Source: Candidatus Eisenbergiella pullistercoris
GTDB lineage: Bacteria > Bacillota > Clostridia > Lachnospirales > Lachnospiraceae
DNA: 64,000 nucleotides
NCBI GenBank assembly: GCA_019115665.1
Contig: DXDD01000036.1
Location: 1 to 64,000, forward strand
Direction of reading: 5' to 3'
A program made the translations under genes and the position numbers. Below, piece by piece: positions 46,667 to 47,502 of the stretch. Each line of letters opens with the position of its first letter. The first letter of the stretch is position 1. The notes below the pieces were generated by a model. The model saw only the letters and a list, made by a program, of their open reading frames with translations. It made no database searches and was not told the origin of the DNA.

Positions 46667-46793
46667 CCGGAAACGCCCGATGTCCCTCTTTTTCGGCAAA
46701 AATCAGGTTTCTTTTTATAGGGTAGAAAAGTACTGCGGCTGGCTTCTTTTCCTATATCGGCCCCCTGTTTGACACCCGACAGTATGCTCCAAT

Positions 46794-47101
46794 ACGGTTA
46801 AAAATAAAAATCTGCATTGTATAACCGTACAAAATGTCGTAAGTGACGGTTAAAAAAGGGGTTTTTCGATCCTTAACCGTACTTTTTGCTCCAGTTTCGA
46901 TATCCATACGGGTAGAAATCTGATTTTCTCATCCGTAACCGTACTTTTGGGCTATTCGGTACGGTTAAAAACAGATTTTTCGATCTTTTAACCGTATCAC
47001 GCCATGAAAAATACGGTTCAGAACAGTATTTTCCGGAATTAGGTCCGTAAAAAATGGATTTTTGTACGGTTCAAAATCCATTTTTTCGCTTTTTTAACCG
47101 T
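46794..47101. repeat. Array of six ~35-36-bp imperfect palindromes (ACGGTT...AACCGT)
   Basis: Units at 46794-46828, 46846-46880, 46908-46942, 46961-46995, 47013-47048 and 47066-47101, separated by 17, 27, 18, 17 and 17 bp. Confidence 0.92.
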
Positions 47102-47271
47102 ATATGGGTGGAAGGGTTTCATGGAAGGACCATGCGAGAGGGTCCGTAGAAGGTCCTCCGATGTTACTGTTCAGCCAGGTCTGCGCATCTACTGCGCAGA
47201 CCGTACGAAAACGTCTCGGCAGAACTGTTACAGATTCATGGAAATTCCTTTTGCCGTTCGTTTTTGCCTGA

Positions 47272-47301
47272 TTGCACCCCACGGCTGCGCTATGATATAA
47301 T
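47272..47301 (+). promoter_or_regulatory. Putative promoter of the plus-strand pse-like operon
   Basis: TTGCAC-N18-TATAAT. Confidence 0.6.
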
Positions 47302-47372
47302 GATTGCGCATAGCGCAATCCGGCCCGATTGCATCGGGCCGCCCCGCTTCGCGGGGATTCTATCCAACCCGC
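47301..47372. repeat. Triple-hairpin direct repeat, copy 1
   Basis: TGATTGCGCATAGCGCAATCCGGCCCGATTGCATCGGGCCGCCCCGCTTCGCGGGGATTCTATC...ACCCGC; near-identical copy at 47431. Confidence 0.92.
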
Positions 47373-47430
47373 GGTTTGCGGGGAAAATGCCGCCGCAGGC
47401 GGCGCTTTCCCCTCTGCACACGCGGTATTA

Positions 47431-47502
47431 TGATTGCGCAAAGCGCAATCCGGCCCGATTGCATCGGGCCGCCCCGCTTCGCGGGGATTCTATCTGACCC
47501 GC
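47431..47502. repeat. Triple-hairpin direct repeat, copy 2
   Basis: 3 mismatches over 72 bp with copy 1; contains ATTGCGC/GCGCAAT, GGCCCGAT/ATCGGGCC and CCCCGC/GCGGGG hairpins. Confidence 0.92.

Follow-up and report, generated by a model that had tools for sequence, protein, structure and literature searches.

Helically phased palindrome arrays dispersed in Lachnospiraceae genomes and a putative PD-(D/E)XK-type nuclease as their likely partner

The window, that is, the whole stretch of 64,000 nucleotides that was analysed, contains an array of six palindromes between divergent glycan operons. This raises the question of what reads these palindromes and whether they belong to the genes beside them. 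The earlier note considered a multi-site operator or architectural element shared by a glycan cluster and a pse-like operon or, alternatively, a hairpin-forming non-coding element. Judging by the genome comparisons described below, it is rather likely that the window array belongs to a set of about 40 that are dispersed in this genome and serve as targets of a sequence-specific nuclease, whose gene is located elsewhere in it. The locus has the following features:

46720-46793, plus strand: conserved left flank of a dispersed module (alignment of 26 copies, in which conservation continues beyond the units; outer boundary approximate)
46794-46828, no strand: palindromic unit R1, 35 bp (unit search of the window)
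46846-46880, no strand: palindromic unit R2, 35 bp (unit search of the window)
46908-46942, no strand: palindromic unit R3, 35 bp (unit search and copy alignment)
46961-46995, no strand: palindromic unit R4, 35 bp (unit search of the window)
47013-47048, no strand: palindromic unit R5, 36 bp, right arm degenerate, ATCCGT (copy alignment)
47066-47101, no strand: palindromic unit R6, 36 bp (unit search of the window)
47102-47150, plus strand: conserved right flank of the module (alignment of 26 copies; outer boundary approximate)

The unit starts given previously (46794, 46846, 46908, 46961, 47013, and 47066) were reproduced exactly, as were the intervals of 52, 62, 53, 52, and 53 bp between them. 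The sole long interval (62 bp) precedes R3 and is conserved in the module family. The arms of R1–R6 carry 0, 0, 1, 0, 2, and 0 mismatches. The array is far beyond chance: with two arm mismatches allowed, shuffled sequence still contains no more than about 0.08 units per kb, and the exact pattern ACGGTTN20-28AACCGT has 161 matches in the window genome (G000) versus 0 for the reversed control pattern. The divergent promoters predicted around the array fared worse in a consensus scan, in which the minus-strand promoter corresponded to a promoter-like match of chance level only, and none was found for the plus strand.

Two other kinds of repeats can be noted to the right of the array. Positions 47169-47245, just beside it, hold a partial copy of a separate intergenic repeat of about 128 bp (GGTCTGCGCAT..TGCGCAGACCGTACG..GGCCGGATG), which has more than 30 matches with 93–98% identity in the window genome, many of them at contig ends. 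Upstream of the pse-like operon, there are two 75-bp copies (47296-47370 and 47426-47500) that are 95% identical and contain nested G+C-rich inverted repeats.

The window array is one copy of a module of about 440 bp present in about 40 copies across the window genome, which disposes of the idea that the units are specific to the divergent glycan-operon site. A BLAST search with the 331-bp region against its own genome revealed 46 matches with 74–100% identity, many of them full length; the matches often sit at contig ends. In the alignment of 26 full copies from this genome, conservation reaches about 70 bp to the left of the units, where the consensus reads AAATACTGC..TTCCTTTTCCCATATC..GGCAGGATGCTCCGATA, and about 50 bp to the right, where it reads ATATGGGCGGAAG..TTCCGTGGAAGACCCTGCGGAA. 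Each of the six unit positions retains its own core across the copies. The level of identity to the consensus is 98% for the arms, 96% for the A-tract at the dyad, 88% for the cores, 86% for the linkers, and 74% for the flanks. The earlier description of conserved arms and varying cores is therefore right about the arms (98% versus 88%), but the cores are fixed by position within the module and not free to vary. Likewise, the degeneracy of R5 is present, but ATCCGT is a conserved trait of position 5 in nearly all copies. Dispersed random single copies had been named as an observation that would speak against the earlier interpretation. This applies by half only: the copies are dispersed indeed, but what is scattered is the complete phased array instead of isolated units placed at random. 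The start of the left flank of the window module recurs at locus L230, and the window copy has an orthologue with 96% identity in the close species G004. A second array family of CTACGGT...CCCGTAG units is likewise dispersed in the window genome. A degenerate array with TACGG/CCGTA arms and a spacing of about 52 bp (L325, G000:C172, locus 1250-1400) is possibly a further array family.

When adjacent units of all loci were compared with the spacing unrestricted, 536 of the 613 distinct pairs were found at 51–54 bp and 58 at 62–64 bp. The earlier remark that the intervals are near whole helical turns fits 608 of the 613 distinct spacings, which lie no more than 1.5 bp from a whole number of turns, although these spacings are not independent because many pairs share ancestry through the module. 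The same quantisation of spacing is shown by the unrelated arrays of the G056, G049, and G006 genomes. G056 (taken as Blautia sp. An81) and G049 (taken as uncultured Roseburia), which represent two other genera of the family, carry their own arrays with the arms, the 34–36-bp unit, and the 52–53-bp period of the window genome, but with unrelated cores. The G056 arrays are unrelated to each other outside the arms and are therefore unlike the result of recent copying, which speaks against the nuclease-target reading. Linker centres are G+C-richer, and an A-tract is located at each unit dyad. The assemblies compared are MAGs.

In a multi-genus search, the TACGGTT...AACCGTA arms were found only in Lachnospiraceae. 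Arrays of the ACGGTT type are present in three of the 299 family genomes (G000, G049, and G056); the single pattern match in G321, on one strand only, was taken as chance. About 85,000 species genomes were also scanned with a pattern that deliberately thinned out the window's own module. Among the matches listed, arrays occurred only in Lachnospiraceae, and the array-bearing records were mostly named after or derived from poultry gut.

Clustering of array-adjacent genes singled out one protein family of about 264 aa, whose gene starts directly downstream of an array and in the same direction at 14 loci in several genera. The gene of the window genome (G000:C126:6730-7518) is preceded by an array of eight units. 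Among the 13 genomes of the genus, many units were found in G000, G004, G009, and G006, and the others are at chance level except for G008. The protein is encoded by the same four genomes and by none of the other nine, so that the protein-bearing set coincides exactly with the array-rich set (4 of 13 genomes; 1 in 715 by chance). G008 contains one remnant array without the nuclease gene, which counts against the nuclease-target reading. All three genomes with ACGGTT-type arrays encode a homologue that is at least 67% identical, and some homologue was detected in 102 of the 299 family genomes. Among 30 homologues with readable upstream DNA, a significant periodic array lies upstream of 24, with lags of 53–54, 63–64, or 74–75 bp, or doubles of these, when lags of 40–109 bp were open to the search. 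The same identity cut was exceeded by none of the 30 gene bodies and by five downstream regions. The partnership of nuclease and array is well supported.

Two paralogues of the nuclease are encoded in the window genome, and each is matched by one of its two array families. The start of the second paralogue (L256, G000:C167:37473-38165), including its N-terminus, is overlapped by its own CTACGGT...CCCGTAG units, which gives the impression that the array has extended into the gene. In five genera (L261, L263, L265, L267, and L275), the array–nuclease unit is located directly after rplM-rpsI, and the array arms at this same place differ between the genera. At L280 and L284, arrays are also found downstream of the nuclease gene, with lags of 53 bp and 86 bp, respectively; the latter is not a whole number of 10.5-bp turns. 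The full-length family is almost confined to Lachnospiraceae, with the exception of G635; outside it, mainly the C-terminal domain was found, within larger proteins. A phage search with the nuclease gave one weak phage-labelled match, and a plasmid search gave no full-length match. The distribution is patchy, and horizontal transfer is plausible.

The protein of about 264 aa, the likely partner of the arrays, carries a C-terminal domain that is probably of the PD-(D/E)XK nuclease type. The motifs RSKxE, PDFT, and EHxG are invariant in 32 homologues. With respect to the PD-(D/E)XK active-site pattern, E and PD are invariant, whereas EH is found where a clear xK would be expected, and the catalytic lysine is not obvious. 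The C-terminal half matches the nuclease domain of PADLOC PDC-S68 with E-values of about 1e-25 to 1e-28, and also PDC-S69. The AlphaFold model has a mean pLDDT of 91.9, and a Foldseek search with it revealed weak similarity to Bax1 (probability 0.99, E-value 0.03), DrdV, R2, and BamHI, with E-values of 0.03 or worse. Searches of Pfam, NCBIfam, and PDB sequences gave no significant match, and a PHROGs search gave only weak matches to endonuclease families. The N-terminal half is predicted to consist of a helix, three strands, and a long helix. A fold search with this domain gave no structural match; our impression is that it resembles the beta3-alpha (AP2-like) DNA-binding topology.

A protein that reads the arms would be expected to have different arms beside its diverged homologues, and this prediction held. 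Between nuclease lineages, the arms differ (TACGATT, TACGTA(C), GTTGAC, GTGACC, CCGACT, GGGGCAA, GTACCC, and GTCCGT), and the consensus arms found upstream of homologues also include GTGACCGC, GGCGGCTG, and CCGACTGA. In the two genomes tested, G324 and G183, the gene-linked arms recur throughout their own genome. The pattern TACGTACN18-26GTACGTA has 81 matches in G324 but is absent from five other genomes, and GTGACCN20-26GGTCAC has 15 matches at four places in G183, one in G324, which is a chance hit, and none elsewhere. At one position of the predicted N-terminal beta-sheet, proteins whose arms are of the TGAC/TTGAC/ATGACC type carry R, and proteins whose arms are of the TACG type carry Q. 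The protein with GGGGCAA arms, which has R, and the one with CCGACT arms, which has E, are exceptions, and the covariation of arm and residue partly follows the protein phylogeny.

The arrays differ even between close genomes. At places where CALWGL, which is about 97% identical to the window genome, has arrays, the latter contains either no array, a remnant of one, or a member of the second array family. The arrays come and go, since presence and absence differ at the same places, and gain and loss look alike in this comparison. The junctions of the polymorphic arrays are rearranged between the two genomes, and no clean insertion or empty site with a target-site duplication was found at these loci.

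We propose that each unit of 34–36 bp is probably bound by a dimer of the nuclease, whose N-terminal domain would read the inverted 7-bp TACGGTT arms, with the A-tract at the dyad as a putative part of the binding site. Since the units repeat every five helical turns, sometimes six, and seven in some relatives, the bound dimers would all be on the same side of the double helix and could assemble cooperatively. The array upstream of the gene would also control nuclease expression. Gene and array appear to have diversified together, with each nuclease lineage having its own arm sequence, both in the array by its gene and in those scattered through its genome. Most likely, the nuclease, which presumably cleaves DNA, maintains and occasionally moves its cognate repeat population, analogous to REPIN/RAYT systems.

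The genes beside the arrays bear on a regulatory alternative. The arrays are intergenic at every locus looked at, and their neighbours are unrelated and mostly housekeeping genes, among them those of DNA polymerase III alpha (dnaE), SAM synthetase (metK), and HrcA; EPSP synthase (aroA-like), GH32, sortase/pilin, Mur ligase, and others were found as well. According to our count in the window genome, about 10 of 25 arrays lie between divergent genes and none between convergent genes, the orientation of the arrays relative to their neighbours looks random, and the distance varies. In G056, however, convergent genes flank 4 of 13 arrays. A glycan-specific operator was rejected, because the flanking genes are diverse and some contexts in G056 are convergent. 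What stands of the operator proposal is that a protein reads a DNA element with multiple sites, whose arms and phase are conserved far beyond the cores; its tie to glycan operons is not supported. Instead of the coherent downstream gene set of a transcription-factor regulon, mixed housekeeping neighbours and some convergent contexts were found. The protein might still be mainly a transcription factor with an autoregulatory or vestigial nuclease domain, which would bind the arrays by its own gene and elsewhere and control the neighbours, in the window among them the glycan operons. Wherever a nuclease gene is accompanied by an array, one lies upstream of it, and the gene contexts in the window genome would suit such a network. 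We consider it unlikely, given the neighbours without a functional theme, the convergent contexts in G056, the random-looking orientation and varying distance, the arrays gained or lost between genomes that are about 97% identical, and the catalytic-type residues that are invariant in all 32 homologues.

Chromosome architecture offers another explanation, according to which a complex that structures the nucleoid assembles at the arrays, with the nuclease-fold protein bridging or wrapping DNA. Strict helical phasing, A-tracts at the dyads, G+C-richer linker centres, and the intergenic, dispersed, orientation-free placement of the arrays are consistent with it. However, arrays that occur with these arms in only three of 299 family genomes, are patchy within the genus, and are turned over between close genomes are unlike a core architectural system, and the nuclease motifs are invariant, which makes this explanation improbable.

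Equally improbable is a defence function, with the nuclease directed against incoming DNA and stored, restrained, or licensed by the arrays in the genome. The closest matches of the C-terminal domain are nuclease domains of candidate defence proteins, namely PDC-S68 and PDC-S69, and the patchy, horizontally plausible distribution with lineage-specific recognition sequences would agree with such a role. Nevertheless, the match to these proteins is confined to the nuclease domain, and the gene usually stands alone beside housekeeping genes (rplM-rpsI, for instance); defence genes do not recur in its neighbourhood, and no methylase or immunity partner was seen.

The folding energy of the array is lower than that of shuffled sequences, with z about -6 to -7 for either strand, but perfect inverted arms alone would give such values. 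When the array units were compared, pairing was not in excess outside the 7-bp arms and was avoided by the A-tract in the centre of the dyad (0.04–0.08 observed versus 0.34–0.46 expected), and Rfam covariance models gave no match near the gathering score for the array. A double-stranded protein site is favoured over a hairpin because the core is unpaired and the dyad avoids pairing; the hairpin-forming element suggested previously fails on these points and on the lack of an Rfam match, and a structured RNA element was rejected for the absence of both an Rfam match and core pairing. A passive repeat of REP/BIME-like hairpins or structured RNA, with no protein partner and a coincidental gene linkage, is thus largely refuted and very improbable, also in view of the gene linkage and the arm matching in independent lineages.

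The nuclease–array partnership can be compared with several known systems. In REPIN/RAYT systems (TnpA-REP, REPtron), a usually single-copy gene of the nuclease type is linked to palindromic repeats scattered between genes, and recognition co-evolves with the repeat (PMC8049555, PMC8266576). Here, too, the gene is accompanied by palindromes that are also scattered through intergenic DNA. As to duplication of the repeats by the protein, another trait of REPIN/RAYT systems, what was seen here is presence/absence polymorphism of the arrays. However, RAYTs are HUH Y1 transposases that act on single-stranded hairpins with a GTAG-type tag, whereas the protein described here is probably of the PD-(D/E)XK type, and its repeats are tandem whole-turn arrays without extended hairpins. 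No Pfam match to the Y1 (IS200/IS605-like) domain was found, the match being to PDC-S68, and the units have no single-strand stem-loop pairing beyond the 7-bp arms. The likeness would therefore be one of working and not of membership. BIME/REP and other intergenic palindromic repeats are short palindromes clustered between genes (PMC3733652); in contrast, the arms described here are 23 bp apart around an A-tract, the units are helically phased, and the cognate gene is known by linkage. The E...PD...EH-G pattern (by eye) and a weak fold similarity are shared with EDxHD/VSR-like and R2-type PD-(D/E)XK endonucleases, but this nuclease is not in an intron or retroelement, its N-terminal domain is its own, and an array lies upstream of its gene. 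PDC-S68 and PDC-S69 (PADLOC candidate defence) resemble it in the C-terminal nuclease domain; the PDC-S68 models are of about 1200 aa, whereas this protein has 264 aa, a different N-terminal half, and palindrome arrays. The arrays also differ from CRISPR arrays, as their linkers are conserved between copies and no cas genes were found among the loci examined. The GIY-YIG nuclease Ssn of Neisseria likewise has a gene with dispersed cognate repeats (NTS), but it belongs to another nuclease superfamily and has a single-stranded substrate, and it is not known to have phased arrays.

No description of such a nuclease–array system was found in the open papers searched. Likely, this is an undescribed class of repeats, in which a stand-alone PD-(D/E)XK-type nuclease would co-evolve with helically phased double-stranded palindrome arrays. 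One array would precede the gene, and many others would be dispersed and turned over; about a third of the sampled Lachnospiraceae genera would have such a system, with dozens of different recognition sequences. If this is true, a main gut family harbours a population of intragenomic repeats that is served by a nuclease of its own and lies outside the HUH/RAYT systems. The protein–array pairs, with their differing arms and one architecture, would be ready material for working out DNA recognition by the N-terminal domain, and programmable phased DNA-binding nucleases could be derived from them. Selection on rotational register could be tested on the phasing, and the role of the repeats, whether selfish, regulatory, architectural, or defensive, would become directly testable in cultured strains such as Blautia sp. 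An81.
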